Source of the DNA: Bacillus niameyensis
GTDB lineage: Bacteria > Bacillota > Bacilli > Bacillales > Bacillaceae_C
Assembly (NCBI RefSeq): GCF_001375535.1
Contig: NZ_LN831197.1
Span: forward strand, 3,571,619 to 3,635,618
DNA: 64,000 nucleotides
Direction of reading: 5' to 3'
Numbering within the stretch: position 1 is the stretch's first letter; each line of letters opens with the position of its first letter. Of this stretch, positions 21,203 through 62,556 are shown in pieces. Under the pieces are notes generated by a model. The model was not told the origin of the DNA and searched no databases. It saw only the letters and a program-made list of their open reading frames with translations. The position numbers and the translations under genes were made by a program.

Positions 21203-21465
21203 CTTCAAAAAAGTCGAAGATTTGTCTCTGATCATGAGCATCAGAGACATTATTTATGAAAAAGTCGAAGTTTTGTCTTTGAGAACGTCTATCGGAGACA
21301 AATACTCCGATTCTAAGCTAGATTTGTCTCTGATCATGAGCATCAGAGACATTATTTATGAAAAAGTCGAAGTTTTGTCTTTGAGAACGTCTATCAGAGA
21401 CAAATACTCCGATTCTGATCCAGTTTTGTCTCTGATCACGTCCAACAGCGACATTTATCTTCGAA
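21203..21465 (+). repeat. 102-bp unit tandem array (family B, locus 1)
   Basis: TTGTCTCTGATCA recurs with a spacing of 102 bases (unit marks at about 21219, 21321 and 21423), giving about two and a half units. Each unit contains two inverted-repeat blocks of the TGTCTCTGAT/ATCAGAGACA type with AAAAAGTCGAAG between them. The period is 34 codons, so one frame is open across the array, but no start signal supports it. The same family occurs at 39752. The remainder of 20880-21560 shows no gene. Confidence 0.75.
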
Positions 21466-36112: not shown

Positions 36113-36146
36113 TGTCTCTGAGAAAGGTGATCAGAGACAAAGTGTG
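36113..36146. repeat. single family B hairpin
   Basis: TGTCTCTGA and TCAGAGACA arms separated by GAAAGGTGA form one copy of the inverted-repeat block found tandemly at 21203 and 39752. It lies just beyond the 3' end of the chemoreceptor gene. Confidence 0.55.
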
Positions 36147-39654: not shown

Positions 39655-39751
39655 TTATATTCTAATTATACATGAATTATAACCACTAAATAAAGTGTGT
39701 ACCGGAGAATTAGAATCTCTAATTTCGAGTGTGATATGAAAAGTTTATCAA

Positions 39752-40054
39752 AAAAGCGAAGTTTTATCTTTGAGAACGCCTATCAGAGACAAATACTCCG
39801 ATACTAAGCCAGCTTTGTCTCTGATCATGTGCATCAGCGACATTATTAATCAAAAAAGCGAAGTTTTGTCTTTGAGAACGCCTATCAGAGACAAATACTC
39901 CGATGCTAAGCCAGCTTTGTCTCTGATCATGTGCATCGGCGACATTATTAATCAAAAAAGCGAAGTTTTGTCTTTGAGAACGCCTATCAGAGACAAATAC
40001 TTCGATACTAAGCCAGCTTTGTCTCTGATCATGTGCATCAGCGACATTATTTAT
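39752..40054 (+). repeat. 102-bp unit tandem array (family B, locus 2)
   Basis: Three units, each with AAAAAAGCGAAGTTTTGTC, TATCAGAGACAAATACTCCG and TTTGTCTCTGATCATG blocks, follow one another at about 102-bp spacing. They differ by only a few bases. One frame is open throughout because the unit is 34 codons long; no start or ribosome-binding site supports a protein. It is in the same orientation as locus 1 at 21203, and lies upstream of the SWIM gene. Confidence 0.8.
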
Positions 40055-40208
40055 CCATGTTGCGAACCAAAAGGTGTATAGGGGTTTACTCAGCAGTTTG
40101 AATAGGCTAATATGAAGCTGATTTTTCCGTTAGGTGAAAGGGAGCTATACCGCATCTAAATACTCGACTGGTGTAAAACAAGTATCATCACTTATGGAGG
40201 GAGTACCT

Positions 40209-45372: not shown

Positions 45373-48336
45373 CTATTTCCCTTGCCATTTTAATAGTAGA
45401 GAGTCTGCATCTGCACTTAAAATACCGTGCAGTTCATCGGAAATGAGTTGCTTTTCCTTCTGAATATCTATTAAAAGTTTGAAACTTTCTAGGTGTTTCA
45501 ATAACTTCGTGCCATTTTCTTGTTTTTCATATAGCCCGATGGATGTTAAGTGGATCGATAGGGCACGATAGGTTTCCTGTGGTAGCTCGTCTTGATATTG
45601 ATCAAGTGTTGCAAGCATATAGGTAGTATTTAATTCCGCGATTGAAATTAAATTGTCCAAAGCAGATTGGAGGTTAGCGATTGCTTTAGCCAACTCTTCT
45701 TCTGTTTGAATATTTTCTAGTGCTGCTTCCGCATTTTTAAGCGCGGTCTGCAGAGAGGCGAAGGATACAGCTGTATATTCATCACTTGAGATCGCTTGAG
45801 CTGCTGCAATTAATTCTTCGAGCTCGGTTAAATCGATACCTGGCTCCTGGGCATCCACTTTTTCATAAAAGCCGAAATCATCAAAGTAGGCTTCTGTTAA
45901 TGCATAGGATGTAGATAGTGCAAAAACTCGCGCGTATGCTGCATTTTCAGGTGCTATAATCTTTTGCTCTATTTTTTGCCACTTGTCATATCCCGAGTCT
46001 GTATGGACTACTTCTTCTTTCAGCTGCTTGTTATTCTCATCATACATGCGGAGAAGGAAGCTTGACTGACCAGAGACGATGTTCATCATGACTTCTCCTA
46101 AATATTCTTGTCCGGGAACGACAGGAATATTTTCACTGTACAAGGCAACTGATATACTTCTCGATTGATCATTAATTTTAAGACTTTGTTCGCCACTAAA
46201 GACGACATCTGTTGATATTTCGAAGTTTGCATCATCTGCAGTTCCGAACATAGACGTCCATCCGTCCAAGTCAGATTCGAAGCCTTGGTTCGTAAATGGA
46301 ATAGGCTTCCACTCATACTCAGTAGGATCAATCACTTCAATTTTTGATAAAACTGTCCGGTTTTCTTGCTTCGATAAATAAATATTTCCATCTTCTCCTA
46401 AATCAAAAGCCCATGTATGGGTAATAAATTTAAAGTCTAATGTTTCTGGATTGATTACGTAAAGATTATTGCCTGCTTTAGCATATAGGAATCCATCTTT
46501 GGAAAATTCCAATTGGACTCGATGCCATGCTCCTTCTGAAGCGTTTTCCTCCAATTTTAACACTTTCGCAATTTCGAGTGTATCTTGCTCCATTGCGAAG
46601 ATGTATCCTCTAGAGGCGCCCCAAATATAGTCATCATTAGGTCCAACTTTTAAATCGCCAATATAACTTGGCTTATTTAAGCCTTCAATATTTAAAGTTC
46701 TTTCCTTTACTTTTTCTCCAGTTACGGGATCCCAAATGAAAACGACTGCTTCATCTGCTGTCGGCACACTGCCTAGCCCGCCAGTAATCGAAGTTGAACC
46801 ATATAGTTTGCCATCCTTATAGGCGAGTCCGTTAATACTTTGATCTTGGACGACGTTCCGATATACAGTATGACTTGTTCCGTCATAGACAGTAATGGCT
46901 CCGCCAAGCTTATTATAGGTCGGAATACTGCCGACAAATAATTTGCCATCGCCACTTGCCATGTGATGGAGGCGTTCCTGTTCCTCCCCGACAATAAATA
47001 ATTCTTCCGCTTGCAGTGGATTCTGCTCGGGATCAATCATCCGTACACTGCCTGAAGGATACATGCCAAAATACATCTTATCATCATATTTATGAATGAC
47101 ATCCGCTTGTCCTAAACTAATGTTCTCGTATGTTTCAGTTTTAGGGTTAAAAACAGCTCCGATTGCTCCGGTCATTCCACTAATATAAATTTTATCATCA
47201 GAATACGTGGAAATTTGGTTGATAACATTAGCTGATGATGGAACAATTTGCGGATAGGTGACAACTGATTCTGTCTCGATGTTAAAGAATACGGCTCTAC
47301 CATCGAAAGTAATTGTTACTAGGCTTTTACCTGGCAGACGCTCATCACCTTTAATCTCTACCCAATCTGCTCCACGCAAGCCACTGCCATATTCCATTGC
47401 TGTTTCCTGAATCTCTAAAGTTTCTAGATTAATATATTTCAATCGTTTATCCGCAACAAAGTATACGTTTGACTCTAGAGAGTCGGTTACATGCAATCCT
47501 GTAACGTTCGGCATGACAACATCCAACCATTTTTCTGCTTGTAAATCATAAATATACATGTTTTGTGAAACGGAATAGCGAGCAAATAGATAGCGGTCAT
47601 CAACGATATTTAAGTCATAGACGAAGCTTGTCTCAGCTGCAAATTGCTCGGCGATACTGCCTGTAGCATTAACAGCGATATCTACTTTTTCACCAGTTTC
47701 TACGTTCAGTTTCATAATCTTTTTATGACCTGTACCAGCATAAACATAGCCGCCATGATAATCCATCGAGCGGACATATTCTTGATTAATATCACCAATC
47801 ATTTTGCCGTAGTCTCGAAGTTCTCCAGACGACTTAGTATATTTAAACACTTTCCCGCTTGGATATGTTCCAATATACGCATTACTCTCTTCATCGACAC
47901 TAAGTGCCCAAAGGGAGGATTCAGGAATATCAGCTAAAGCTTTGACTTCCTTCGTTTCTGGAGAGTAGCCCCAAATATGATTCCCAGCTGCAATATATAC
48001 AGTACCATCAGGAGCTACTTCATGATGCCAAGAATCGGCTGCTCCCTCTAAAGGTAATGTCCGTAAAACCTTTTGATTATCTAAATCAATGACGCTAAAC
48101 ATAGCGGGAATGCTTTTAGAAGTTGTATAGAGTACATTTAATCCATCTTCCTTGCCAGCTGCCCCGTCATAAATTGTTGGAGAGCCGCTTAAAGGTGCGG
48201 TTATATCCCTTTCAGGTGAAAACTCAGGAAGTGTCTGTGCTGCTGATGCCTTTGAATTTAATCCTCCGAAAGGCAACATTAAAAGACATGAGAAAGCTAC
48301 AAGCATTATTTTAGATAAGCTTCGTTTAATTTTCAT
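45373..48336 (-). CDS. large secreted beta-propeller protein with CBM-like, FIVAR and FIMAH-like domains
   Basis: The 987-residue protein has a Sec signal peptide (about 1-32). A long stretch of propeller-type repeats follows (about 40-680: VLYTTSKSIPAMFSVIDLDN, VAPDGTVYIAAGNHIWGYSP, SYIGDLKVGPNDDYIWGAS). A beta-sandwich carbohydrate-binding module-like region spans about 685-835 (NQGFESDLDGWTSMFG). A FIVAR helical repeat covers about 840-900 (LEELIAAAQAISSDEY), and a FIMAH-like C-terminus completes it. Such proteins are found in polysaccharide-degrading loci of Paenibacillaceae and Bacillaceae. Extracellular glycan binding is inferred. There is no cell-wall sorting signal. Confidence 0.8.
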   Translation of the reverse strand: MKIKRSLSKIMLVAFSCLLMLPFGGLNSKASAAQTLPEFSPERDITAPLSGSPTIYDGAAGKEDGLNVLYTTSKSIPAMFSVIDLDNQKVLRTLPLEGAADSWHHEVAPDGTVYIAAGNHIWGYSPETKEVKALADIPESSLWALSVDEESNAYIGTYPSGKVFKYTKSSGELRDYGKMIGDINQEYVRSMDYHGGYVYAGTGHKKIMKLNVETGEKVDIAVNATGSIAEQFAAETSFVYDLNIVDDRYLFARYSVSQNMYIYDLQAEKWLDVVMPNVTGLHVTDSLESNVYFVADKRLKYINLETLEIQETAMEYGSGLRGADWVEIKGDERLPGKSLVTITFDGRAVFFNIETESVVTYPQIVPSSANVINQISTYSDDKIYISGMTGAIGAVFNPKTETYENISLGQADVIHKYDDKMYFGMYPSGSVRMIDPEQNPLQAEELFIVGEEQERLHHMASGDGKLFVGSIPTYNKLGGAITVYDGTSHTVYRNVVQDQSINGLAYKDGKLYGSTSITGGLGSVPTADEAVVFIWDPVTGEKVKERTLNIEGLNKPSYIGDLKVGPNDDYIWGASRGYIFAMEQDTLEIAKVLKLEENASEGAWHRVQLEFSKDGFLYAKAGNNLYVINPETLDFKFITHTWAFDLGEDGNIYLSKQENRTVLSKIEVIDPTEYEWKPIPFTNQGFESDLDGWTSMFGTADDANFEISTDVVFSGEQSLKINDQSRSISVALYSENIPVVPGQEYLGEVMMNIVSGQSSFLLRMYDENNKQLKEEVVHTDSGYDKWQKIEQKIIAPENAAYARVFALSTSYALTEAYFDDFGFYEKVDAQEPGIDLTELEELIAAAQAISSDEYTAVSFASLQTALKNAEAALENIQTEEELAKAIANLQSALDNLISIAELNTTYMLATLDQYQDELPQETYRALSIHLTSIGLYEKQENGTKLLKHLESFKLLIDIQKEKQLISDELHGILSADADSLLLKWQGK

Positions 48337-48422
48337 CTTGACCTCCTATTCGAAATTCATCCTACTTACGGTTATACAAATACACCTCACGGACATAAAC
48401 CACCCCCTTTCAAGGTTATAGA

Positions 48423-48436
48423 TGAATACGTTTTCA
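48423..48436 (-). promoter_or_regulatory. cre-like site upstream of the secreted beta-propeller gene
   Basis: TGAATACGTTTTCA, nearly palindromic, matches the CcpA consensus at 13 of 14 positions. It lies about 90 bases before the start, where repression of a glycan-related gene would be expected. Confidence 0.55.
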
Positions 48437-48603
48437 TAGTGGATTAAAAAAATATTGCTAGATGTTGAAAATTCATATATGAAATTAAAAGTGTAGATTT
48501 CTGTAACGTATTGCCATACTGTTGGAATTTTTGAATAGTCTATGTGGTTGGTTACGTAAAAGGTGGGGGCTTCAAGCGGCAGTTCATAGGAGATGCCGCA
48601 TTT

Positions 48604-49134
48604 CTATGATGGATTTCTTTTTAAAATATAATCTTGTATCGTCTTTTCCCAAATTTCATAATCTTCATCGCTTACTAAATGGATAACATAGTCCGAAATT
48701 CCTGTGAAATTAGGATTGTTAGGGTTCAAACCACCAACTGTTTTTGATTGATCTGTCAAGTTGATTGTAATGTAATGAAAAGTGCCATCAGCAGAATCGT
48801 TATCAGACTGATCTTCTTCGAGCTTCCAGAATTTATTTTTTTCAATAAGCTTTTTGAGTTTCTCTATTTTTTCGCTCTCCAATTGAGTTTCAAAAACCGG
48901 AGCATCGTCATCCATGTTTAATTTTTCATCGGCTTTTGTATATAAAATTAGCTTACCACTGCTGTAAATGGAGTAGTTACGTGTGAAAAAGTTTCTGTAA
49001 TCACCTTCACCAGCAGGGGAAGTTGTAACGACAATAAATGGCTTTTCAGTTTCATAGTTCGTCTTCTGGCTACAACTTGCCATGAAAATATAGGAAAGGG
49101 CCATAACTAAAGTCAAACTCATTATTTTTTTCAA
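48604..49134 (-). CDS. lipoprotein of unknown function
   Basis: The product is about 177 residues from a TTG at 49134 (6 bases after ATAGGTGG); the ATG at 49140 touches that site and 25 codons further up are also open. The signal peptide ends in a lipobox MASC-type segment (SYIFMASCSQKT). The mature part has VTTSPAGEGDYRNFFTRNYS, LESEKIEKLKKLIEKNKFWK and HYITINLTDQSKTVGGLNPN. No enzyme motif is recognised. It stands alone on the minus strand. Confidence 0.75.
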   Translation of the reverse strand: MKKIMSLTLVMALSYIFMASCSQKTNYETEKPFIVVTTSPAGEGDYRNFFTRNYSIYSSGKLILYTKADEKLNMDDDAPVFETQLESEKIEKLKKLIEKNKFWKLEEDQSDNDSADGTFHYITINLTDQSKTVGGLNPNNPNFTGISDYVIHLVSDEDYEIWEKTIQDYILKRNPS

Positions 49135-49373
49135 TACCATCCACCTATTATTTCCATATTTTGGATTATGTTCACCAAAGAGTATACAGCGTTCATGCAT
49201 AAAAACAAGGACCAATTGTCATGGGTTTAGACTAGGGTTTCAGTTTTTCCAGTAGAGAGGGTCACTCTCTAATAGCGATGCCGAGTGCTTATTTGGAAAC
49301 CTTATACATAATTTCATTCATATAGCGCAAACATATGTGTAGCTCTAAATTTATGTATATAAGGGTGATTTAA

Positions 49374-49661
49374 ATGAAGGTTCTCCTAATATTAGCGAGC
49401 ATCATACTCCCAATTGTTATGTTTATCTTGCAAAAGATTTGGTTGAAAGCTCGTTTTGTTTTTAACAGTATTGCGATTATTTCTATGCTTACTTTTGGCA
49501 ATATTGCCTCCCTATCCATTTATGAGATCCTTAAGGATAAAACAGTCTTTATGACTAATATTCACTCTGTTTTTTTAAATCCGCTTTTTCTAGTAACGGG
49601 GGGTTATCTAGGAATTTATCTACTATATCGTTTAATCATTTTAAGCTTAGAAAATGAGTAA
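49374..49661 (+). CDS. small integral membrane protein
   Basis: This 95-residue protein has three hydrophobic segments (about 2-19, 26-44, 63-85), giving a compact membrane protein. The ATG follows AAGGGTGAT. No family is recognised. It is upstream of the SigB-type stress cluster but has its own start signals. Confidence 0.7.
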   Translation: MKVLLILASIILPIVMFILQKIWLKARFVFNSIAIISMLTFGNIASLSIYEILKDKTVFMTNIHSVFLNPLFLVTGGYLGIYLLYRLIILSLENE

Positions 49662-49750
49662 CTTCACTATTATTGGATGAATTATATGAATTCATCCATA
49701 TCTTTGCTGAAACTATTACTCTAGCAAAACAAAAAACATTCGTTGAAAAG

Positions 49751-49775
49751 GTTTAGAAAATCTAGCAAGTGGTAT
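49751..49775 (+). promoter_or_regulatory. SigB-type promoter of the GsiB-like gene
   Basis: GTTTAG (49751-49756) and TGGTAT (49770-49775) with a 13-base spacer fit the SigB consensus GTTTAA-N12-15-GGGWAW with one mismatch in each element. In B. subtilis gsiB is a classic SigB target. Confidence 0.7.
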
Positions 49776-49810
49776 TTTTTATAGTACATCCAATGAAAGG
49801 GGTTATACAA

Positions 49811-50302
49811 ATGGCTGATAACAAGAAGATGTCCAATGAACAAGCAGGAAAACAAGGTGGAGAAGCTACTGCTGCAAATCATAGTAAGGAATTCTATCAA
49901 GAAATTGGCCAAAAGGGTGGAGAAGCAACGGCTGAGAATCATGACAAGGAATTCTATCAGGAGATCGGTCAAAAAGGTGGAGAAGCAACGGCTGAAAATC
50001 ATGATAAGGAATTTTATCAAGAGATCGGTCAAAAAGGTGGAGAAGCAACCGCCGAGAATCATGATAAGGAATTCTATCAAGAGATTGGTCGAAAAGGTGG
50101 AAAAGCAACCGCCGAGAATCATGATAAGGAATTTTATCAAGAGATCGGTCAAAAGGGTGGAGAAGCAACGGCTGAGAATCATGATAAGGAATTTTATCAA
50201 GAGATCGGTCAAAAGGGTGGAGAAGCAACCGCTAAGAATCACGGTAAAGAGTTCTATCAGGAGAATGGTCAAAAAGGTGGAAGAAACAACAACAATAGTT
50301 AA
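49811..50302 (+). CDS. gsiB: GsiB-like general stress protein with 20-residue glycine-rich repeats
   Basis: The 163-residue hydrophilic protein is built of about seven near-identical 20-residue repeats of the type GQKGGEATAENHDKEFYQEI, a KGG/YciG-type motif. B. subtilis GsiB shares this repeat and is among the most strongly SigB-induced proteins; it is thought to protect against desiccation and other stress like LEA proteins. The repeat is 60 bp at DNA level and near-perfect, so copy number may vary between strains. The start ATG 49811 follows AAAGGGG. Long open frames in other frames and on the opposite strand here are by-products of the repeat. Confidence 0.93.
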   Translation: MADNKKMSNEQAGKQGGEATAANHSKEFYQEIGQKGGEATAENHDKEFYQEIGQKGGEATAENHDKEFYQEIGQKGGEATAENHDKEFYQEIGRKGGKATAENHDKEFYQEIGQKGGEATAENHDKEFYQEIGQKGGEATAKNHGKEFYQENGQKGGRNNNNS

Positions 50303-50445
50303 ATTGGAATTGGATAGAGGGATGCCCGGCAGCATCTCTCTATCAGAATACTTATCTAGTAACATTATTATAAACAATTCTGCTGCAAAATAAAAGCAAG
50401 ATATACAGTTATTTATATAGTCCCAAACAGGGAGTGATATAAACT

Positions 50446-50589
50446 ATGCTTTGGACAATTATAGTGACATTATTTGTTTTATGGATTTTAGGGTTCTCTT
50501 TAAAAATAGGCGGTGGGCTGATCCATTTATTATTAGTTGTCGCGCTCATTGCTTTGATTATAAGGTTAGTGACTGGGAGAAGACCTTAG
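50446..50589 (+). CDS. Lmo0937-family small membrane protein
   Basis: This 47-residue protein has two membrane helices: MLWTIIVTLFVLWILGFSL, then a GGGLIHLLLVVALIALIIRL segment, and ends TGRRP. This is the Lmo0937-like family, common next to SigB-regulated genes in Bacillaceae and Listeria. GGGAGTGAT precedes the ATG. It follows gsiB by about 140 bases and may be stress induced; no clear SigB box of its own was found. Confidence 0.88.
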   Translation: MLWTIIVTLFVLWILGFSLKIGGGLIHLLLVVALIALIIRLVTGRRP

Positions 50590-50599
50590 CGGAACTTCC

Positions 50600-50639
50600 A
50601 CAGTGAGATTCTACAATGGGTAGTTTCTCACTGTTTTTC
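50600..50639 (+). terminator. terminator after the Lmo0937-like gene
   Basis: ACAGTGAGA pairs perfectly with TCTCACTGT across about 17 bases, followed by TTTTTCT. Confidence 0.75.
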
Positions 50640-50700
50640 TAACGTACGGGAAAAAGAGACAGAAAGTGTTTTTGACACATTCGTTATTCTGCATTATTAA

Positions 50701-50727
50701 GGCGTTGCAACATGATGTTGCAACGCC
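50701..50727. other. perfect 11-bp hairpin GGCGTTGCAAC/GTTGCAACGCC
   Basis: The two arms enclose a 5-base loop (ATGAT). No T-run on the plus strand; on the minus strand TTAATAATGC follows. It may end the YflT gene transcribed toward it or be a recombination or binding site. Confidence 0.55.
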
Positions 50728-50780
50728 ATTTATCAATTAGTGGGGAGGAAGGGAGGGCTCCCCGCTGATTGAAGTTTCAC

Positions 50781-51119
50781 TTATCTGATTACACTAGGCT
50801 CTGTTATGATTAGCAGTATTTTTCCACGATCTAATTTTTCCTCGAGTTCATTTGCTTCAAGTTGGGAAAAACCGAGTTCTTTAAACTTACTACGCAGCTC
50901 GTCGCCCTGTGTCTTGAAGACATTGCCAACAGCTGTTAAGAGACCTTCCTCTTGTATTCCCACTGTGTTCGCACCTGTATTTTCAGCTACTCGCTCTGTA
51001 CGGTCTTCATCGTGAGAAATTACATAGAGATTTTCCTTTGCAATTCCTTTTCGAGATTGTGCTATTACTTCTTCCATTAAAACTTTCTCATCTGCGAATT
51101 CTTTTACAAAAGGTTTCAA
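50781..51119 (-). CDS. YflT-domain general stress protein
   Basis: This 112-residue protein matches the YflT heat-induced stress protein family (EFADEKVLMEEVIAQSRKGI, NLYVISHDEDRTERVAENTG, then a C-terminal LEEKLDRGKILLIIT). B. subtilis yflT is SigB controlled. A textbook SigB promoter lies just upstream, and AGGAGGAAT precedes the ATG. Biochemical role is not known. Confidence 0.9.
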   Translation of the reverse strand: MKPFVKEFADEKVLMEEVIAQSRKGIAKENLYVISHDEDRTERVAENTGANTVGIQEEGLLTAVGNVFKTQGDELRSKFKELGFSQLEANELEEKLDRGKILLIITEPSVIR

Positions 51120-51163
51120 CGTAAATTCCTCCTAAACTAGTAGTAGGTGCTTCTAGTTTATTT

Positions 51164-51188
51164 ATTCCCGTTCATAGGAAAAATAAAC
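51164..51188 (-). promoter_or_regulatory. SigB promoter of the YflT gene
   Basis: Read on the minus strand: GTTTAT (51188-51183), 13-base spacer, GGGAAT (51169-51164). This fits GTTTAA-N12-15-GGGWAW with one mismatch. Confidence 0.85.
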
Positions 51189-51224
51189 TTTAGCTTTTAC
51201 TAGGTTAGTAGAAATAGAAGATCA

Positions 51225-51563
51225 CTATATCTTTTTGACAAACTCGGATTTAAGATTCATTGCTCCGAATCCCGCGATCTTGCATTCAATATTATGATCA
51301 CCTTCAACAAGACGGATATTTTTAATATTGGTCCCTTGCTTCAAAACAGAAGAGCTTCCTTTAACTTTTAAATCTTTAATAATCGTAATGGTGTCCCCAT
51401 CTGTTAATGTATTCCCGTGAGCGTCCTTTACTATGTTTTGTTCTTCAACGCTTTCACTTTCTGAACTGCTCCACTCATGACCACATTCTGGGCAAACAAA
51501 AAGTGACCTATCCTCATATGCATATTCAGAATTGCATTTTGGACAATTTGGTATGTTTGTCAT
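51225..51563 (-). CDS. yjdM: YjdM/PhnA-type zinc-ribbon protein
   Basis: The 112-residue protein has an N-terminal zinc ribbon ([20 protein letters not shown], the two CxxC pairs at about 8-28). The C-terminal PhnA domain is [20 protein letters not shown] and [14 protein letters not shown]. The old name 'alkylphosphonate uptake protein' is historical and not a proven function. It is the last gene before the satellite array, whose left edge begins about 210 bases upstream of it. AAGGAAAATGAC precedes the start. Confidence 0.9.
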
Positions 51564-51773
51564 TTTCCTTCCCCCGTTTCTAAGACTATGTATTAAACAA
51601 GATTATACCATTTAAAATGGTGGGTGGCTGTGGAATTAATAAAGTCCAAGTAGAGGTCGCTATACTGGACAAATCTGCCCCTCTATTTTACTTGAACTTT
51701 TTTGTCCAAGTGTGTTTTCCTGTGCCATATAAAAAACTGCTCCGCATAATTGTAGTCCACTGAAAAAGCTCGT

Positions 51774-54700
51774 GTCATGTCCCGTACGCCTTCTTTTTTC
51801 CCTTGAATGGGACATGATGAGTGTTATCAAAGCCCGATCGCCTCCTTTTTTCCCTTGAATGGGACGTGATAAGTGTAGTCATGTCCCGTACGCCACCTTT
51901 TTTTCCTTGAATGGGACGTGATGAGTGTTATCAAAGCCCGATCGCCATCTTATTTCCCTTGAATGAGACGTGATGAGTGTTATCAAAGCCCGATCGCCAT
52001 CTTTTTTTCCTTGAATGGGACGTGATAAGTGTTATCAAAGCCCATTCGCCATCTTTTTTCCCTTGAATGGGACGTGATGAGCGTTATCAAAGCCCGATCG
52101 CCTCCTTTTTATCCTTGAATGGGACATGATAAGTGTTATCAAAGCCCGATCGCCATCTTATTTCCCTTGAATGGGACGTGATGAATGTTGTCATGTCCCG
52201 TACGCCACCTTTTTTTCCTTGAACGGGACATGATGAGTGTTGTCATGTCCCGTTCGCCAGCTTTTTTCCCTTGAATGGGACATGATGAGTGTAGTCATGT
52301 CCCGATCGCCACCTTTTTTTCCTTGAATGGGACGTGATAAGTGTTATCAAAGCCCATTCGCCAGCTTTTTTCCCTTGAATGGGACATGATGAGTGTTATC
52401 AAAGCCCGATCGCCATCTTTTTTGGCTTGAAGGGGACATGATGAGTGTTATCAAAGCCCGATCGCCATCTTTTTTTCCTTGAATGGGACGTGATAAGTGT
52501 TATCAAAGCCCGATCGCCATCTTTTTTTCCTTGAATGGGACGTGATAAGTGTTATCAAAGCCCGATCGCCATCTTTTTTGGCTTGAAGGGGACATGATGA
52601 GTGTTATCAAAGCCCGATCGCCATCTTTTTTTCCTTGAATGGGACGTGATAAGTGTTATCAAAGCCCATTCGCCATCTTTTTTCCCTTGAATGGGACGTG
52701 ATGAGCGTTATCAAAGCCCGATCGCCATCTTTTTATCCTTGAATGGGACATGATAAGTGTTATCAAAGCCCGATCGCCATCTTATTTCCCTTGAATGGGA
52801 CGTGATGAATGTTGTCATGTCCCGTACGCCACCTTTTTTTCCTTGAACGGGACATGATGAGTGTTGTCATGTCCCGTTCGCCAGCTTTTTTCCCTTGAAT
52901 GGGACATGATGAGTGTAGTCATGTCCCGATCGCCACCTTTTTTTCCTTGAATGGGACGTGATAAGTGTTATCAAAGCCCATTCGCCAGCTTTTTTCCCTT
53001 GAATGGGACATGATGAGTGTTATCAAAGCCCGATCGCCATCTTTTTTGGCTTGAAGGGGACATGATGAGTGTTATCAAAGCCCGATCGCCATCTTTTTTT
53101 CCTTGAATGGGACGTGATAAGTGTTATCAAAGCCCGATCGCCATCTTTTTTTCCTTGAATGGGACGTGATAAGTGTTATCAAAGCCCGATCGCCATCTTT
53201 TTTGGCTTGAAGGGGACATGATGAGTGTTATCAAAGCCCGATCGCCATCTTTTTTTCCTTGAATGGGACGTGATAAGTGTTATCAAAGCCCATTCGCCAT
53301 CTTTTTTCCCTTGAATGGGACGTGATGAGCGTTATCAAAGCCCGATCGCCATCTTTTTATCCTTGAATGGGACATGATAAGTGTTATCAAAGCCCGATCG
53401 CCATCTTATTTCCCTTGAATGGGACGTGATGAATGTTGTCATGTCCCGTACGCCACCTTTTTTTCCTTGAACGGGACATGATGAGTGTTGTCATGTCCCG
53501 TTCGCCAGCTTTTTTCCCTTGAATGGGACATGATGAGTGTAGTCATGTCCCGATCGCCACCTTTTTTTCCTTGAATGGGACGTGATAAGTGTTATCAAAG
53601 CCCATTCGCCAGCTTTTTTCCCTTGAATGGGACATGATGAGTGTTATCAAAGCCCGATCGCCATCTTTTTTGGCTTGAAGGGGACATGATGAGTGTTATC
53701 AAAGCCCGATCGCCATCTTTTTTTCCTTGAATGGGACGTGATAAGTGTTATCAAAGCCCGATCGCCATCTTTTTTTCCTTGAATGGGACGTGATAAGTGT
53801 TATCAAAGCCCGATCGCCATCTTTTTTGGCTTGAAGGGGACATGATGAGTGTTATCAAAGCCCGATCGCCATCTTTTTTTCCTTGAATGGGACGTGATAA
53901 GTGTTATCAAAGCCCATTCGCCATCTTTTTTCCCTTGAATGGGACGTGATGAGCGTTATCAAAGCCCGATCGCCATCTTTTTATCCTTGAATGGGACATG
54001 ATAAGTGTTATCAAAGCCCGATCGCCATCTTATTTCCCTTGAATGGGACGTGATGAATGTTGTCATGTCCCGTACGCCACCTTTTTTTCCTTGAACGGGA
54101 CATGATGAGTGTTGTCATGTCCCGTTCGCCAGCTTTTTTCCCTTGAATGGGACATGATGAGTGTAGTCATGTCCCGATCGCCACCTTTTTTTCCTTGAAT
54201 GGGACGTGATAAGTGTTATCAAAGCCCATTCGCCAGCTTTTTTCCCTTGAATGGGACATGATGAGTGTTATCAAAGCCCGATCGCCATCTTTTTTGGCTT
54301 GAAGGGGACATGATGAGTGTTATCAAAGCCCGATCGCCATCTTTTTTTCCTTGAATGGGACGTGATAAGTGTTATCAAAGCCCGATCGCCATCTTTTTTT
54401 CCTTGAATGGGACGTGATAAGTGTTATCAAAGCCCGATCGCCATCTTTTTTGGCTTGAAGGGGACATGATGAGTGTTATCAAAGCCCGATCGCCATCTTT
54501 TTTTCCTTGAATGGGACGTGATAAGTGTTATCAAAGCCCATTCGCCATCTTTTTTCCCTTGAATGGGACGTGATGAGCGTTATCAAAGCCCGATCGCCAT
54601 CTTTTTATCCTTGAATGGGACATGATAAGTGTTATCAAAGCCCGATCGCCATCTTATTTCCCTTGAATGGGACGTGATGAATGTTGTCATGTCCCGTACG

Positions 54701-57700
54701 CCACCTTTTTTTCCTTGAACGGGACATGATGAGTGTTGTCATGTCCCGTTCGCCAGCTTTTTTCCCTTGAATGGGACATGATGAGTGTAGTCATGTCCCG
54801 ATCGCCACCTTTTTTTCCTTGAATGGGACGTGATAAGTGTTATCAAAGCCCATTCGCCAGCTTTTTTCCCTTGAATGGGACATGATGAGTGTTATCAAAG
54901 CCCGATCGCCATCTTTTTTGGCTTGAAGGGGACATGATGAGTGTTATCAAAGCCCGATCGCCATCTTTTTTTCCTTGAATGGGACGTGATAAGTGTTATC
55001 AAAGCCCGATCGCCATCTTTTTTTCCTTGAATGGGACGTGATAAGTGTTATCAAAGCCCGATCGCCATCTTTTTTGGCTTGAAGGGGACATGATGAGTGT
55101 TATCAAAGCCCGATCGCCATCTTTTTTTCCTTGAATGGGACGTGATAAGTGTTATCAAAGCCCATTCGCCATCTTTTTTCCCTTGAATGGGACGTGATGA
55201 GCGTTATCAAAGCCCGATCGCCATCTTTTTATCCTTGAATGGGACATGATAAGTGTTATCAAAGCCCGATCGCCATCTTATTTCCCTTGAATGGGACGTG
55301 ATGAATGTTGTCATGTCCCGTACGCCACCTTTTTTTCCTTGAACGGGACATGATGAGTGTTGTCATGTCCCGTTCGCCAGCTTTTTTCCCTTGAATGGGA
55401 CATGATGAGTGTAGTCATGTCCCGATCGCCACCTTTTTTTCCTTGAATGGGACGTGATAAGTGTTATCAAAGCCCATTCGCCAGCTTTTTTCCCTTGAAT
55501 GGGACATGATGAGTGTTATCAAAGCCCGATCGCCATCTTTTTTGGCTTGAAGGGGACATGATGAGTGTTATCAAAGCCCGATCGCCATCTTTTTTTCCTT
55601 GAATGGGACGTGATAAGTGTTATCAAAGCCCGATCGCCATCTTTTTTTCCTTGAATGGGACGTGATAAGTGTTATCAAAGCCCGATCGCCATCTTTTTTG
55701 GCTTGAAGGGGACATGATGAGTGTTATCAAAGCCCGATCGCCATCTTTTTTTCCTTGAATGGGACGTGATAAGTGTTATCAAAGCCCATTCGCCATCTTT
55801 TTTCCCTTGAATGGGACGTGATGAGCGTTATCAAAGCCCGATCGCCATCTTTTTATCCTTGAATGGGACATGATAAGTGTTATCAAAGCCCGATCGCCAT
55901 CTTATTTCCCTTGAATGGGACGTGATGAATGTTGTCATGTCCCGTACGCCACCTTTTTTTCCTTGAACGGGACATGATGAGTGTTGTCATGTCCCGTTCG
56001 CCAGCTTTTTTCCCTTGAATGGGACATGATGAGTGTAGTCATGTCCCGATCGCCACCTTTTTTTCCTTGAATGGGACGTGATAAGTGTTATCAAAGCCCA
56101 TTCGCCAGCTTTTTTCCCTTGAATGGGACATGATGAGTGTTATCAAAGCCCGATCGCCATCTTTTTTGGCTTGAAGGGGACATGATGAGTGTTATCAAAG
56201 CCCGATCGCCATCTTTTTTTCCTTGAATGGGACGTGATAAGTGTTATCAAAGCCCGATCGCCATCTTTTTTTCCTTGAATGGGACGTGATAAGTGTTATC
56301 AAAGCCCGATCGCCATCTTTTTTGGCTTGAAGGGGACATGATGAGTGTTATCAAAGCCCGATCGCCATCTTTTTTTCCTTGAATGGGACGTGATAAGTGT
56401 TATCAAAGCCCATTCGCCATCTTTTTTCCCTTGAATGGGACGTGATGAGCGTTATCAAAGCCCGATCGCCATCTTTTTATCCTTGAATGGGACATGATAA
56501 GTGTTATCAAAGCCCGATCGCCATCTTATTTCCCTTGAATGGGACGTGATGAATGTTGTCATGTCCCGTACGCCACCTTTTTTTCCTTGAACGGGACATG
56601 ATGAGTGTTGTCATGTCCCGTTCGCCAGCTTTTTTCCCTTGAATGGGACATGATGAGTGTAGTCATGTCCCGATCGCCACCTTTTTTTCCTTGAATGGGA
56701 CGTGATAAGTGTTATCAAAGCCCATTCGCCAGCTTTTTTCCCTTGAATGGGACATGATGAGTGTTATCAAAGCCCGATCGCCATCTTTTTTGGCTTGAAG
56801 GGGACATGATGAGTGTTATCAAAGCCCGATCGCCATCTTTTTTTCCTTGAATGGGACGTGATAAGTGTTATCAAAGCCCGATCGCCATCTTTTTTTCCTT
56901 GAATGGGACGTGATAAGTGTTATCAAAGCCCGATCGCCATCTTTTTTGGCTTGAAGGGGACATGATGAGTGTTATCAAAGCCCGATCGCCATCTTTTTTT
57001 CCTTGAATGGGACGTGATAAGTGTTATCAAAGCCCATTCGCCATCTTTTTTCCCTTGAATGGGACGTGATGAGCGTTATCAAAGCCCGATCGCCATCTTT
57101 TTATCCTTGAATGGGACATGATAAGTGTTATCAAAGCCCGATCGCCATCTTATTTCCCTTGAATGGGACGTGATGAATGTTGTCATGTCCCGTACGCCAC
57201 CTTTTTTTCCTTGAACGGGACATGATGAGTGTTGTCATGTCCCGTTCGCCAGCTTTTTTCCCTTGAATGGGACATGATGAGTGTAGTCATGTCCCGATCG
57301 CCACCTTTTTTTCCTTGAATGGGACGTGATAAGTGTTATCAAAGCCCATTCGCCAGCTTTTTTCCCTTGAATGGGACATGATGAGTGTTATCAAAGCCCG
57401 ATCGCCATCTTTTTTGGCTTGAAGGGGACATGATGAGTGTTATCAAAGCCCGATCGCCATCTTTTTTTCCTTGAATGGGACGTGATAAGTGTTATCAAAG
57501 CCCGATCGCCATCTTTTTTTCCTTGAATGGGACGTGATAAGTGTTATCAAAGCCCGATCGCCATCTTTTTTGGCTTGAAGGGGACATGATGAGTGTTATC
57601 AAAGCCCGATCGCCATCTTTTTTTCCTTGAATGGGACGTGATAAGTGTTATCAAAGCCCATTCGCCATCTTTTTTCCCTTGAATGGGACGTGATGAGCGT

Positions 57701-57955
57701 TATCAAAGCCCGATCGCCATCTTTTTATCCTTGAATGGGACATGGTAAGTGTTATCAAAGCCCGATCGCCATCTTTTTTCCCTTGAATGGGACGTGATGA
57801 GCGTTATCAAAGCCCGATCGCCACCTTTTTTTCCTTGAATGGGACATGATGAGTGTTATCAAAGCCCGATCGCCACCTTTTTTGCCTTGAATGGGACGTG
57901 ATGAGTGTTATCAAAGCCCATTCGCCATCTTTTTATCCACGAATGAGACATGAAA
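51774..57955 (+). repeat. 6.1-kb satellite-like array of 52-bp monomers with 624-bp higher-order repeat
   Basis: Monomers of exactly 52 bp run head to tail; 118 full ones fill 51809-57944, with partial units outside. Each has GGGAC[A/G]TGAT, a variable centre, CCC, a NNCGCC box (CGATCGCC, CGTACGCC, GTTCGCC or CATTCGCC) and a T tract of 5-7 bases before CCTTGAAT. Monomers of two kinds alternate in blocks: full TCATGTCCC arms (complete hairpin with GGGACATGA) or TATCAAAGCCC. From 52173 a block of 12 monomers recurs at 52797, 53421 and so on, every 624 bases, nine times. No open frame spans it; 52 is not a multiple of three. It lies between the divergent PhnA-like and isomerase genes. Confidence 0.95.
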
Positions 57956-58035
57956 AAAGGTGGCAAAGACATAAATGGATTGATTCTTTTATAAAATTCA
58001 ATGAAAGGGATGAAATAAGAAGGGGTGAGGGCTCT

Positions 58036-58803
58036 GTGAAATTTGGCTGTTGCGCTGCGATCGAATACAGTGAACATGTTCGTCAAGCAGGATTTGACTT
58101 CATGGAATGTACAGTCGTTTCTTTAGTTCCTGAAAAGGGGAAGTATGAATTTGCGGAGATTTTTCGAAAGTATAAAGCAAGTCCTTTACCTGTTGAAGCT
58201 TGTAATGTGCTTCTACCGGGAGATATGAGGATCGTTGGAGAACAGATAAATGAAGACCGAATAAAATCTTATTTAGAATGTGCATTGAACCGAGTTCATC
58301 AAATTGGAGCTCAAGTCGTAGTATTTGGAAGTGGTAAAGCTCGCTCCGTTCCCACTGGTTTTTCGCGTGAAAAAGGAGAGGAGCAAATCTTACAATTCCT
58401 TGAAACTGCAGCCAATTATGCTCAGCCATTAGGTATTACGATTGTCATTGAGCCATTAAACAAAAAAGAATCAAATCTTATTAATACAGTGGAAGAAGCG
58501 CAAATGTATGCTGAAAAAGTGAATCGTCCTTCTATTCAAGTGCTTGCGGATTTTTATCATATGATGGAAGAAAATGAACCATTAAATCATTTGATTACCG
58601 CTAAAAAATACCTTCATCATATTCACGTAGCGGATACAGGCCGGACAGCACCTGGACAAGGTTCCTATCCATATGCGGATTTTATCAGGACTTTAAAAGC
58701 AGCCAATTATAATGAGCGAGTATCGATTGAGTGTGGATGGGGGCATTTTGAAGATGAAATTGTCAATGCCCGCGAATTTTTGCGCCGCCAATTTGGAGAA
58801 TAG
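58036..58803 (+). CDS. sugar phosphate isomerase/epimerase (AP endonuclease 2-type TIM barrel)
   Basis: The GTG at 58036 follows AGGGGTGAGG and gives 255 residues: MKFGCCAAIEYSEHVRQAGF at the start, VVFGSGKARSVPTGFSREKG, ITIVIEPLNKKESNL (metal Glu), IQVLADFYHMMEEN (Asp), HHIHVADTGRTAPGQGSYPY (His), VSIECGWG (Glu). This is a xylose isomerase-like barrel for sugar isomerisation. The frame remains open upstream to 57853, inside the satellite array; that extension has the wrong composition and is rejected. No promoter could be seen within the array or the 80 bases after it. Confidence 0.85.
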   Translation: MKFGCCAAIEYSEHVRQAGFDFMECTVVSLVPEKGKYEFAEIFRKYKASPLPVEACNVLLPGDMRIVGEQINEDRIKSYLECALNRVHQIGAQVVVFGSGKARSVPTGFSREKGEEQILQFLETAANYAQPLGITIVIEPLNKKESNLINTVEEAQMYAEKVNRPSIQVLADFYHMMEENEPLNHLITAKKYLHHIHVADTGRTAPGQGSYPYADFIRTLKAANYNERVSIECGWGHFEDEIVNAREFLRRQFGE

Positions 58804-58865
58804 TCTGTAGTGCCAGGGGCAGATACTACCTGGCACTACACTAGTCTCATTTAAAATGTGGACAA

Positions 58866-58973
58866 TTTGTGATATATATCACAAATTTATTGATTTTAAA
58901 AACAACCGCGTTTATACTTAGTTCATGAAGTTGAATGTGATCTAATTCACATATTAATGTGTAACTCTTCACA
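58866..58973 (+). promoter_or_regulatory. promoter with three FNR/Rex-type palindromes before the NADH oxidase gene
   Basis: TTGATT (58890-58895) and TATACT (58913-58918) with a 17-base spacer form a good SigA promoter. Three TGTGA-N6-TCACA boxes surround it: TTGTGATATATATCACAA at 58867-58884 upstream, TGTGATCTAATTCACA at 58936-58951 and TGTGTAACTCTTCACA at 58958-58973 downstream. The pattern fits Fnr (CRP/FNR family) or the redox repressor Rex, whose site is very similar. Downstream boxes suggest repression. Confidence 0.75.
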
Positions 58974-59001
58974 AATCCAAACATCGAAGGAGTCTTTACT
59001 C

Positions 59002-60333
59002 ATGAAAGTTATCGTAATTGGTTGTACACATGCAGGAACTGCTGCTGTTAAAAATATAGCTACTTTATATAAAGATGCATCTATTACTGTTTATGAAAAA
59101 AATGATAACGTCTCGTTTTTATCTTGCGGGATCGCCTTATATGTTGGCGGTGTTGCGAAGGATGCAAATAAAATGTTCTATTCTTCGCCAGAAGAGCTTA
59201 AGGCACTTGGCGTTAAGATGAATATGAAACATGAAGTTTTGGAGGTAGATTCTGAACAGAAAAAAATAATAGCTAAAGACCTCGTGACAGGTGAAGTAAA
59301 AGTAGATCATTATGATAAATTGGTCATGTCTACAGGATCTTGGCCAGTAATACCGCCAATCGATGGAATTAATCTAGAAAATATCTTGCTATGTAAGAAC
59401 TTCCACCAAGCGAATATCATTATCGAAAAGGCAAAGGGAGCCAAAAATATTACGGTGATTGGCGCTGGATATATCGGTGTAGAACTAGTAGAAGCATTTC
59501 AACTAGATGGGAAAAATGTAACTTTAATCGATGGGGAAGAGCGAATTTTAAATAAGTATCTTGATCAAGAGTTTACGGATATAGTAGAAGCGGAATTTAC
59601 GAGACGCCATATTGAACTTGCCCTTAGCCAAACAGTTACGAAGTTTGAAGGGGAAAACGGGAAGGTTGCAAAAGTCATCACAACAAAAGAGGAAATCGCA
59701 ACTGATCTTGTTATCCTTTGTGTTGGGTTCAAGCCAAATACCGGATTATTAAAAGGCAAAGTAGAGATGTTGGACAATGGTGCGATTGTCGTCGACGAAT
59801 TTTTACAAACGAGTGATCCAAATATTTATGCTGCGGGAGATAGCTGTGCTGTTTACTACAATCCGCTCGGTAAACATATGTATATTCCGTTAGCGACAAA
59901 CGCTGTTAGAATGGGAACAATTGTCGGTCATAATATAATGGAACCGAAAGTGAAATATTTAGGTACGCAAGGGACATCAGGACTGCATATTTATGATTTA
60001 AATATGGCTTCTACTGGTTTGACTGAACTAACGGCGAAGCAAGCAGGAATTGCTTATCAAACTGTTGACGTCATTGAAAACAACCGTCCAGAATTCATGC
60101 CAACTTACGAAGAGGTTAAGCTAAAACTGGTCTATGAAGAAGCGAGCAGAAAAATACTTGGAGCACAGATCATTTCGAAAGCGGATATGACACAAACGAT
60201 CAATACTCTATCCGTATGTATTCAAAAAGAAGTGACAATCGACGAATTAGGCTTTATCGACTTCTTTTTCCAACCGCATTTCAACAAACCATGGAATATT
60301 TTAAACCAAGCAGGACTGTCTGCATTAGTGTAA
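59002..60333 (+). CDS. nox: FAD-dependent NADH oxidase / CoA-disulfide reductase family
   Basis: This 443-residue flavoprotein belongs to the NADH oxidase/CoA-disulfide reductase group. The FAD dinucleotide fold is MKVIVIGCTHAGTAAVKNI, the single redox Cys lies in VSFLSCGIALYVGG (Cys near residue 42), the NAD site is ITVIGAGYIGVELVEAFQ, and the FAD-binding NIYAAGDSC follows. The C-terminal dimerisation domain is present. Water-forming Nox reduces O2 with NADH; CoA-disulfide reductase cannot be excluded. A promoter with redox-type operators supports a role in NAD+ balance. The ATG follows GAAGGAG. Confidence 0.88.
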   Translation: MKVIVIGCTHAGTAAVKNIATLYKDASITVYEKNDNVSFLSCGIALYVGGVAKDANKMFYSSPEELKALGVKMNMKHEVLEVDSEQKKIIAKDLVTGEVKVDHYDKLVMSTGSWPVIPPIDGINLENILLCKNFHQANIIIEKAKGAKNITVIGAGYIGVELVEAFQLDGKNVTLIDGEERILNKYLDQEFTDIVEAEFTRRHIELALSQTVTKFEGENGKVAKVITTKEEIATDLVILCVGFKPNTGLLKGKVEMLDNGAIVVDEFLQTSDPNIYAAGDSCAVYYNPLGKHMYIPLATNAVRMGTIVGHNIMEPKVKYLGTQGTSGLHIYDLNMASTGLTELTAKQAGIAYQTVDVIENNRPEFMPTYEEVKLKLVYEEASRKILGAQIISKADMTQTINTLSVCIQKEVTIDELGFIDFFFQPHFNKPWNILNQAGLSALV

Positions 60334-60353
60334 GTTCTACACTTACAAATACT

Positions 60354-60390
60354 AAATCTCTCCAAATTTAACTTGGAGAGATTTATTTTC
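60354..60390. terminator. bidirectional terminator between convergent genes
   Basis: AAATCTCTCC pairs perfectly with GGAGAGATTT across AAATTTAACTT, with TTATTTTC on the plus side. It separates the NADH oxidase and chemoreceptor genes. Confidence 0.85.
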
Positions 60391-60394
60391 ATAC

Positions 60395-62404
60395 TTACGA
60401 TTCATCTTGTGAATGCTGTTTATCGCTTAACTTAAACTGCCCAACTAATTCTTGTAGCTCTTCCGCTATTACGGTTAGGGAAGTAGCAGAGTGTGAGATT
60501 TCCTCCATCGATGCCAACTGTTCCTCTGTAGAGGCAGATACATTTTGCGTTTCACTTGATATGATTACTCCAATAGATGCAACTTCTTTAAAAGTTTGTA
60601 CAAAATGATCCGTACTAGAAGAAATAGCCTCAATCTCAGAGGTAACCCGTTTAATCTGTTCTGTTATTGTATCTACATACCCTGTGATCGTCATAAAGGA
60701 TTCACCTGCATGATTCGCAATAACAATTCCTTTGTCTACTTCATTTGTTGCTGTTTCCATAGATTTTACTGTATTGCCGGTAACGGAATGGATTTTTTCG
60801 ATTAATTCTTTGATTTGCACGGCTGAATGAGAAGATTCTTCTGCAAGTTTTCGGACTTCATCCGCCACAACAGCAAATCCTTTTCCATGCTCTCCTGCTC
60901 TTGCGGCTTCAATTGCAGCATTTAATGCGAGCAAGTTAGTCTGATCAGATATATCGGTAATCACATCAACGATATTACTAATCTGGTTTGATAAGTGACC
61001 TAATCCTTCGATGTTATTAGCTAATTCATGAGTGTTTTCCTTAATATATTTCATCTGGTTAACAGTTGTTTCTAACGCTTTGTTTCCTTCGGTTACAGCG
61101 CTCATAGTATTTGTTGCAGTTGTAGAGACTTCATTTGAGCTTGTCACAATTTGATAAACGGATTCTGCCATTTCTAATGTCATTTTTTCGCTATTTTCAA
61201 TACTGTCAGATTGGTGTCCGCTTTTTATCGCAACTTCTTGAATCGAAGTGGAAATTTGTTCTGTTGCTAAAGTATTCTGCTCCGTACTAGCACTAAGTTG
61301 TTCGGAGGCTGATGCCAAGCTATTAGATTCAATATGAACTCGCGAAATAACATCATTTAAATTTTCTCTCATTTGATTAAATGCTTTCGCAAGCACACCG
61401 AGCTCATCATTTGTGTTCAAATCTACACCAACACTCAGATCCTTTTGACTAATTCTTTCACTTGCTTCCACCAATAGCTTGATCGGTTTAGAGATTGAAC
61501 GAACGAGCAATAGGACGATTATTCCGCCTAGTATGATCGCTATAACAATAATGCCAATTGTAAAATTCATAATAGGTGCAACAGTTTTATCCACTTCCGT
61601 TTGGTACATTGTTCCAACGATCTTCCAACCTGTCAGATCATTCGTAGTGAAAGCCAATCTTTTCTGATCGCCTTCAACCGTATAATTAAATTTCCCAGAT
61701 TCAGAGGTGTATAGTTTTTTTATGAAATTCTCTACTGCCTCACTTCCAGCTTCATTGGTAGGGTGACTAATGTAACGCTTAGTTCCGTCTAATAGAAACA
61801 AATAGCCTTCCTCACCAATGTTTACAGAATTTATAATATCTGTAAGACTTTCGAGTTTAAGATTGATGGCAACAACCCCTTTGCTATCAGCGGTTGCTTT
61901 TGCTAATGTCACAACTACTTCATTAGAAGAACTTGATACGTACGGCTCCGTAATAATGACTTTCGTATTATTTTCCATTGCCTCTTTGTACCAAGGACGT
62001 TCCCGAGGGTCGTAGTCTGGTGGGTTTTTAAACGATGTTGGTGAATTCATGAAAGTACCTGTTTCCGTACCTACATATGTTTGTTCGACAACATCAGACT
62101 TAGCACTTTGAATGGTGTCAAGGATGCGCCGTGTCTGTGGTTCATTATCATTACGAATATGACCCGCAACGATGGCGGTTGATAAGTAATCAACATTTTC
62201 CATTTGTGCTTTAATAAATTGATTCACAGTTTGATTGACAATATCGACGTTTTTTTGAGCTGTTTCCATCATATTTTCGTCGATCGTAGATTTTGAATTA
62301 AAATATGATCCGAAACCGATAGATATACTAGGAATTAATAAAATGATTAGAGAAGCTATTATTAATTTGCTTTTTAGGCTTATCGAGAGTTTCTTTTTCT
62401 TCAA
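60395..62404 (-). CDS. methyl-accepting chemotaxis protein with dCache-type sensor
   Basis: A TTG at 62404 lies 7 bases after GGAGGC and gives about 669 residues; 52 open codons further up have no site. One transmembrane helix ([20 protein letters not shown]) is followed by an extracytoplasmic dCache-like domain (about 35-280; [32 protein letters not shown]). A second helix, HAMP ([18 protein letters not shown]) and the signalling tip [20 protein letters not shown] follow. It probably senses small molecules outside the cell. Ligand unknown. Confidence 0.92.
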
Positions 62405-62556
62405 CTTTTTTGCCTCCAAATTGAGATATATGACATACATTTGTTTATATCGACTAAAGTCCCGTATCCTTAATATAGAAGTGAAAATCCAGTTTATTTG
62501 TGTTATTGGAAATTTGCCGACATCGGTAGGGGCGATTCGTGAAATTCCTTTAAACC

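Follow-up and report, generated by a model that had tools for sequence, protein, structure and literature searches.

The window, by which we mean the whole stretch of 64,000 nucleotides of Bacillus niameyensis DNA that was analysed, contains a tandem array of 6182 bp between two divergent genes, one encoding a YjdM/PhnA-domain protein to the left and one encoding a xylose-isomerase-like TIM barrel to the right (Table 1). The array counts 118.9 units of 52 bp, that is 118 full units and a partial one, with zero indels. TRF reports it at 51787-57953 with period 52, 118.6 copies, 0% indels and a score of 8890. The window further holds two shorter arrays and a lone dyad of a second sequence family (family 2). 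No tRNA genes were found in the window, and Rfam gave zero matches to it at gathering score.

Table 1. Features of the window (positions counted from its first nucleotide)
Feature	Position	Strand	Remark
Family-2 array	21218..21438	+	Dyads TGTCTCTGA-N9-TCAGAGACA each 51 bp; 102-bp dimer repeat (TRF)
Lone family-2 dyad outside the two family-2 arrays	36113..36139	.	Possible seed or remnant
Family-2 array	39747..40055	+	Dyads each 51 bp; 102-bp dimer repeat (TRF)
YjdM/PhnA-domain protein gene, left neighbour	51225..51563	-	Pfam scan
Decayed IS1182-type end CACTGAAAAAGCTC	51758..51771	+	Differs from CACTGAAAAAGTCC at 2 positions; its inner side faces the array
52-bp tandem array	51774..57955	+	118.9 units as assembled, indel-free
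Left edge, seven units A-G	51774..52137	+	All except E and F confined to the left edge
624-bp (12 x 52) block HIJKLMEEMEFN	52138..57753	+	Nine copies as assembled; single base difference, at 57745
Best hairpin of the array, units I/J	52220..52256	+	Recurs every 624 bp
Right edge	57754..57955	+	Units P, Q and R (divergent), then S (partial, decayed)
Xylose-isomerase-like TIM barrel gene, right neighbour	58036..58803	+	Pfam; ORF open from 57853, likely start 58036 chosen by us

Counted directly, the units fall into 19 types, the decayed end unit included, which follow each other in the order A-G, the 12-unit series HIJKLMEEMEFN nine times, and P-S. Identity at lag 624 is complete over 52105-57744 and amounts to 0.989 over the whole array, where lag 52 gives 0.88. 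These results agree with the original prediction, made from the letters of the DNA, of contiguous indel-free 52-bp monomers, of nine 624-bp blocks and of a satellite-like organisation with a nested higher-order repeat, the one base given in Table 1 being the only difference between the block copies. The array had also been described as gene-free, and indeed no ORF of at least 80 aa lies wholly within it. Its origin by chance is ruled out. Between 51100 and 58800 promoter-like sites show no excess (8 compared to 13.6 expected), and the 9 terminator-like sites, compared to a shuffle mean of 7.7, are not significant and are all copies of the hairpin in units I/J. If the arrays are removed from the window, autocorrelation gives nothing at 52 (z -0.6) and a z of 1.8 at 51.

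The hairpin of units I/J has a 13-bp stem. The folding z-score is -5.6 for this stretch and -0.5 for a stretch of units with the arm ATCAAAGCCC; of the hairpins which had been proposed for the array, strong ones are thus limited to some of the units. The arm ATCAAAGCCC occurs in 9 of the 12 block units, where the remaining pairing is GGG...TGA-N9-TCA...CCC with an unmatched middle. The consensus of the array shows no significant inverted repeat.

A singular, centromere-like object, as suggested by the original prediction, is not supported: arrays of this kind recur elsewhere in the genome and in other members of the order. This genome has about twenty loci whose units measure 51-52 bp; besides the arrays of the window they were found by search (L047, L048-L051, L057, L066, L102-L104, L127 and L217-L219) and by sampling (L088 and L092). 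Two families of dyads were distinguished, family 1 with the motif GGGACATGA-N9-TCATGTCCC and family 2 with the motif given in Table 1. The family-2 dyad, with up to 2 mismatches allowed, has 59 occurrences in the genome and none in the reversed control. If the spacing of the dyads is left free between 35 and 65 bp, 150 forward and 118 reverse matches are obtained, compared to 1 and 4 in the reversed control. Among the matches listed, a spacing of 52 bp is found at 7 loci and one of 51 bp at 6; a further 12 loci occur singly, at spacings anywhere from 36 to 64 bp, and one locus is repetitive and looks coding.

The monomer itself is far less widespread than the kind of array. As a query of 104 bases it has one other match in this genome outside the window array, at 69%, and it is unmatched in the other 119 of 120 genomes. 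A 1248-bp piece of the array gave no match in plasmids and phages, and the family-2 dyad is absent from viral contigs. One exact family-2 dyad was also compared with a collection of genome contigs, which may omit records near this genome, and 5 stretches were returned. Four of them belong to Bacillus timonensis and all four hold 51/52-bp arrays; the fifth is a single hairpin in a Lachnospiraceae MAG.

The comparison between the loci of a family separates the parts of the unit. In family 2 (10 usable loci) the identity between loci is 0.87 for the arms, 0.37 for the loops and 0.46 for the spacers (shuffled 0.36), and in family 1, for which only the left part of the window array was taken, the values are 0.78, 0.39 and 0.47 (shuffled 0.30). 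The spacing over 11 loci of family 2 is 51 bp in 34 of 40 cases, 52 bp in four, and 100 and 101 bp once each; over 7 loci of family 1 it is 52 bp in 40 of 41 cases. Part of the arm identity is built in by the search, which accepted units that departed from the arm motif at up to 5 of 18 positions; the spacing was under no such constraint. The spacers lie slightly above random, which indicates that some of the loci are related by descent.

Across 43 arrays arm pairing amounts to 164 of 344, compared to 115 ± 10 after shuffling, and was reached in 0 of 2000 shuffles; this test skipped the three inner pairs, which are imposed by the search pattern, and the shuffle ignores relatedness (GTCTC is common to 10 of the 43 arrays). 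A significant inverted repeat in the consensus was obtained for 29 of the 60 arrays scored, leaving 31 without one, and 14 of the 16 significant cases with a unit of 52 or 104 bp have odd loops. Where the arms are intact, the inverted arms are mostly 8-13 bp long and the loop is short and mostly odd, with 9 bp in the two families of this genome. At many loci the TGA-N9-TCA core is imposed by the pattern, and longer arms are present only in some.

This pattern consists of three TGA-N9-TCA dyads with the period left free between 48 and 54 bp, and it was used to follow the class through related genomes. It occurs in 10 of 34 genomes of the family and in 35 of 397 genomes of the order, distributed over 21 of 135 genera, compared to 11 of 397 in the reversed control (counted from the individual rows). 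In a sample of the phylum it occurs in 3 of 149 genomes, this genome included, and the other two are single hits. The order-wide pattern led to 24 new loci: 18 are arrays with a unit of 51-53 bp, counted regardless of coding status, one is an array with a unit of 48 bp and five are without an array. The sequences of the arrays found in this way are largely unrelated, with arms of the TGTCYYTGA type common to several genomes. Some single hits of the pattern look coding, judged by period and sequence, namely those with a period of 54 in G009 and G015 and of 48 at L173.

Unit lengths were also sampled with TRF over 864 kb, comprising the window, 20 stretches of 20 kb from this genome and, for each of four other genomes, five stretches of the same size. 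The stretches of this genome were taken at roughly even places, two of them shifted by 30 kb off known arrays; the four other genomes were picked for pattern hits elsewhere, so that the sample is not random. It contains 24 arrays with a unit of at least 30 bp, and 5 of these lie within open frames over 200 aa. Among the remaining 19 arrays, 12 have units of 50-53 bp, 4 have units of 41-42 bp, and units of 103, 32 and 214 bp occur once each. Of the 12 arrays of 50-53 bp, 6 are situated in frames that run for 100-188 codons without a stop, and these 6 are non-coding by threshold only. If the window is left out, units of 50-53 bp are present in 9 of 15 sampled arrays. In 362 kb from 20 other genomes of the order, in which the pattern had given no hit, 1 of 7 arrays has a 52-bp unit; the class is patchy.

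With respect to the neighbouring genes, the arrays favour the gaps between convergent genes. In this genome 9 of 17 arrays lie in such gaps compared to 20 of 168 background gaps (p 1.8e-4), and in the other genomes 14 of 31 compared to 32 of 162 (p 0.005). Divergent gaps are depleted of arrays in the other genomes (2/31 vs 39/162, p 0.03) and show no depletion in this genome (4/17 vs 27/168, p 0.49). These counts rely on crude ORF calls, made by slightly different rules for the arrays and for the background, and leave 2 arrays of each set unassigned.

The window array is real, and with high confidence we regard it as a member of a class of intergenic minisatellites with a unit of 51-53 bp, mostly 52 bp, whose sequence is free to differ. 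It is among the two largest arrays found in the class while not clearly the largest. Minisatellites themselves are known; what is notable here is a bacterial minisatellite with a constant unit length at free sequence. Our overall reading, to which we assign a probability of roughly 0.45, is that these are minisatellites of palindromic sites about five helical turns apart, grown by unequal exchange and bound by a putative dimeric protein. The window array would have been grown and homogenised by unequal exchange in whole-unit steps, leading to the 12-unit higher-order repeat. We hold this step to be very probable on account of the homogenised middle and the divergent edges, and unequal exchange, already named by the original prediction, is supported as the likeliest motor.

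A dimeric DNA-binding protein would then sit on dyads that all face the same side of the helix at intervals of five turns, and the regular nucleoprotein stretch formed in this way might be tolerated mainly at convergent gene ends. Among the roles offered by the original prediction, a platform for protein binding is thus the one that we favour. This is the simplest reading of loci whose arms are alike, whose loops and spacers are not, and whose spacing is nevertheless kept at 51 or 52 bp; we consider it plausible, at somewhat less than even odds. A unit that stays near 52 bp despite differing letters hints at a cellular factor by which the spacing is measured. That 51-53 bp correspond to five turns at 10.2-10.6 bp is an interpretation, and another ruler would fit. 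A molecular ruler shared by part of the order, either a dyad-recognising protein or an amplifying enzyme that enforces about 52 bp (five helical turns), would be a speculative extension which we think rather unlikely to hold. If it were true, fast-changing and largely unrelated satellite families would all be held to a single unit length and would assemble into regular nucleoprotein filaments in the intergenic regions. A unit length conserved without conservation of sequence points to a physical ruler, be it a protein on the DNA or an amplification enzyme that sets the length, and this can be tested in harmless bacilli.

Bacterial minisatellites are usually handled as neutral typing markers. 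The arrays could likewise be neutral or selfish minisatellites that arise by slippage or unequal exchange, keep an inherited unit length, have a spacing that is read by nothing and persist at convergent gene ends as the least harmful places. Such an origin would account for the homogenised middle and divergent edges, for the dimer and higher-order repeats of many arrays, for the excess at convergent gene ends and for the decay of the stems in the biggest arrays. It is less easily reconciled with spacers that are near-random in arrays which yet hold 51 or 52 bp, as drift to near-random spacers should have produced indels too, and with the 51-53 bp held by largely unrelated arrays of other genera. 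We regard it as an unlikely explanation.

A further hint towards the origin of the arrays comes from insertion sequences of the IS1182 type. The window array begins 2 bp after the decayed end and, as it lies on the inner side of this end, takes the position expected for the element's interior. An IS insertion scar within the array was rejected on the same observation. The exact end CACTGAAAAAGTCC occurs at five places in this genome, representing three loci if a second giant array (L126) is counted once, and each is near a 52-bp array: the distance is 3 bp at L047, 17 bp at L127 and, across a stretch with family-1-like units, about 110 bp at L126. L102 has a copy with 2 mismatches on the right, as a right end only. 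In random windows of 190 bp, up to 2 mismatches to CACTGAAAAAGTCC occur in 8 of 2000. We propose that family 1, to which the window array belongs, may have originated as the internal part of a miniature element derived from IS1182. This origin is suggested by the position of the array beside the decayed end, on its inner side, and we give it about even odds. The nearness of CACTGAAAAAGTCC to arrays at three loci is a likeness to miniature elements of the IS1182 family. In contrast to these, an inverted second end was found neither in L127 (up to 3 mismatches) nor near the array in L047 or in the window, a transposase is missing at the best-preserved loci with end and array, and most arrays are without an end.

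These ends could also indicate that structure itself drives the amplification. A hairpin or cruciform, for example the stem-loop of an IS1182 end, would be duplicated by a length-setting transposase or replication enzyme, and the arrays would be a by-product of structure-dependent transposition. According to PMC5678879, IS1272, which a review cited there assigns to the IS1182 family, has inverted repeats as its targets, replaces them, and may bear a left end of 25 bp duplicated in tandem; inverted-repeat-targeting elements are included in the family. The ends near arrays (three distinct loci exact, two decayed) are consistent with this, as is the folding of 8 hand-chosen ends from relatives: in 7 of them, two of which are identical, a strong hairpin lies just inside, and in most cases a T-run comes after it. 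This genome has 25 IS1182-like matches; none of them, however, is above the family cut-off, and no array with a unit of at least 30 bp was present at the 10 match loci that were read. In relatives the exact CACTGAAAAAGTCC occurs at 43 listed places, one copy terminating an IS1182-like element (257 bits, cut-off 270), but 0 of the 27 places read have a 52-bp array. An end with up to 2 mismatches within 150 bp accompanies 4 of 26 arrays, family 2 and most arrays elsewhere having none. Taken together, we consider amplification driven by structure improbable.

The length of the array requires separate treatment. The second giant array, L126, has 118.9 units of 52 bp and a 260-bp block with 23.8 copies, and its interior is uniform save near the edge. 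Its right edge is present three times with 294 bp of identical flank; two of the three copies break off at one shared base, next to either an N or a gap of Ns, and the third alone continues into unique sequence. L126 is visibly mis-assembled in the same assembly as the window array, so the nine perfect blocks of the latter could stem from a cycle in the assembly graph that was unrolled into linear copies. The assembled length of the window array is untrustworthy. We infer a secure minimum of about 35 units (1.8 kb), which follows from the unique edges, one block and its variant in the order of unit types. A stronger version of the argument, in which length and perfection are an artefact and a short heterogeneous array was unrolled by the assembler, could also draw on the perfectly identical interiors of both giant arrays and their nearly equal TRF lengths (6167 bp in the window, 6181 bp for L126). 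Against it, the window contains no N bases and both edges of its array are unique, and an artefact leaves the existence of the array, the order of its units and the shorter heterogeneous arrays at other loci unexplained; we deem it very improbable. Assemblies of loci with such arrays should be treated with caution.

A segregation or replication-barrier element with a chromosome-level role, for which the regular array of dyads might speak, is dismissed as extremely improbable in view of about twenty loci in the genome, of a window monomer confined to this genome among 120, and of nine congeners that possess orthologs of the TIM-barrel gene (56-65% identity) in a non-syntenic neighbourhood, with neither an array nor a YjdM gene within 1.5 kb on each side.

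Several known repeat systems resemble the arrays in part. Dispersed bacterial minisatellites (VNTR), for example the MIRU of Mycobacterium tuberculosis, are tandem arrays with units of tens of bp and variable copy number. The arrays described here also lie between genes at many loci, in tandem and with a unit of that size; they differ in holding their unit length across largely unrelated sequences and across genera, and in having alike dyads with free spacers within a genome. Eukaryotic centromeric satellites possess nested repeats, a homogenised core and divergent edges. The window array shares all three, whereas in the assembly it is no longer than about 6 kb, a single genome has several families, and nothing points to a role in segregation. 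The arrays might serve as a bacterial system in which the birth of satellites, their homogenisation and the formation of higher-order repeats can be followed.

REP and BIME sequences are short extragenic palindromes of 20-40 bp, at times clustered in tandem, with a GTAG or CGTC tag (PMC3733652). The arrays are also short extragenic palindromes in tandem, but with units of 51-53 bp and mostly tandem, and the consensus of the window array is without a GTAG or CGTC tag. GTAG is seen in the window array only at junctions, where a unit ending in TA precedes a unit starting with GTC. The family-2 dyad shares its geometry of 9-bp arms around a 9-bp gap with the CIRCE operator of HrcA, TTAGCACTC-N9-GAGTGCTAA, as given in PMC1676014; family-2 dyads are of other sequence and arrayed in tandem, whereas CIRCE is single at chaperone promoters. 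A CRISPR array is not supported, in line with the original prediction: whole 52-bp units repeat, there are no unique spacers between identical repeats, the nine blocks are near-identical, and the 8 neighbouring ORFs (45373-62560, Pfam scan) include no Cas gene. A literature search over titles and the starts of abstracts, mostly without subscription papers and preprints, returned no description of such arrays, which is weak evidence. Other unit lengths met in passing were 20.5-21, 41-42 and 103 bp, and whole helical turns fit these too.

Besides the main 52-bp array of the window, the B. niameyensis genome carries a second giant array, around which the assembly is visibly faulty, with N gaps and the array edge present in triplicate together with 294 bp of flank. 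On the minus strand of this array all three frames are without stops across approximately 2000 codons. We do not regard this as evidence of a gene, as the three stop-free frames follow from units that are themselves stop-free, combined with the period of 52 bp.

Among the 60 arrays scored, the significant dyads in arrays with a unit of 52 or 104 bp have an odd loop in 14 of 16 cases, that is, a base pair lies on the symmetry axis. A lone hairpin resembling family 2, an array family of B. niameyensis, was found in a Lachnospiraceae MAG, a host beyond the order of B. niameyensis.

A GC-rich palindromic element of the TTGATTTVCGCTYCAGGCGG...CTTTCCGCGGG type often comes after the IS1182-type end; it apparently represents a miniature element that occurs commonly in these genomes. 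IS1182-like transposase gave 25 matches in the B. niameyensis genome, many of them partial, and the best contains three internal stops. Several matches are copies of equal score, located at 0.85-0.86 and 1.21-1.25 Mb.

The 60-bp repeat near the main array is an ordinary coding tandem repeat. A second repeat class is built on a unit of approximately 20.5 bp, appearing as 20/21, 41/42, 62, 82 or 103 bp; these lengths are likewise close to whole helical turns.

Repeat features and associated elements (L plus number, stretch fetched from the B. niameyensis genome or other genomes)
Feature	Location	Remark
Coding 60-bp repeat	window 49769-50302	encodes a KGG-repeat stress protein (Pfam KGG, LEA_5)
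~20.5-bp-unit class	L098 6274-6444	
~20.5-bp-unit class	L098 9396-9571	
~20.5-bp-unit class	L200 17726-17819	
~20.5-bp-unit class	L203 19254-19718	
~20.5-bp-unit class	L116 5467-5686	
~20.5-bp-unit class	window 16106-16204	
Second giant array	L126 5017-15494 (B. niameyensis C6:3676000-3695000)	52 bp x 118.9, 260-bp block
Lone family-2-like hairpin	L113 4900-4928	at gene end
IS1182-type end with GC-rich palindromic element	L123, L130, L133, L134, L136-L138, L142, L144, L146, L150, L151, L153
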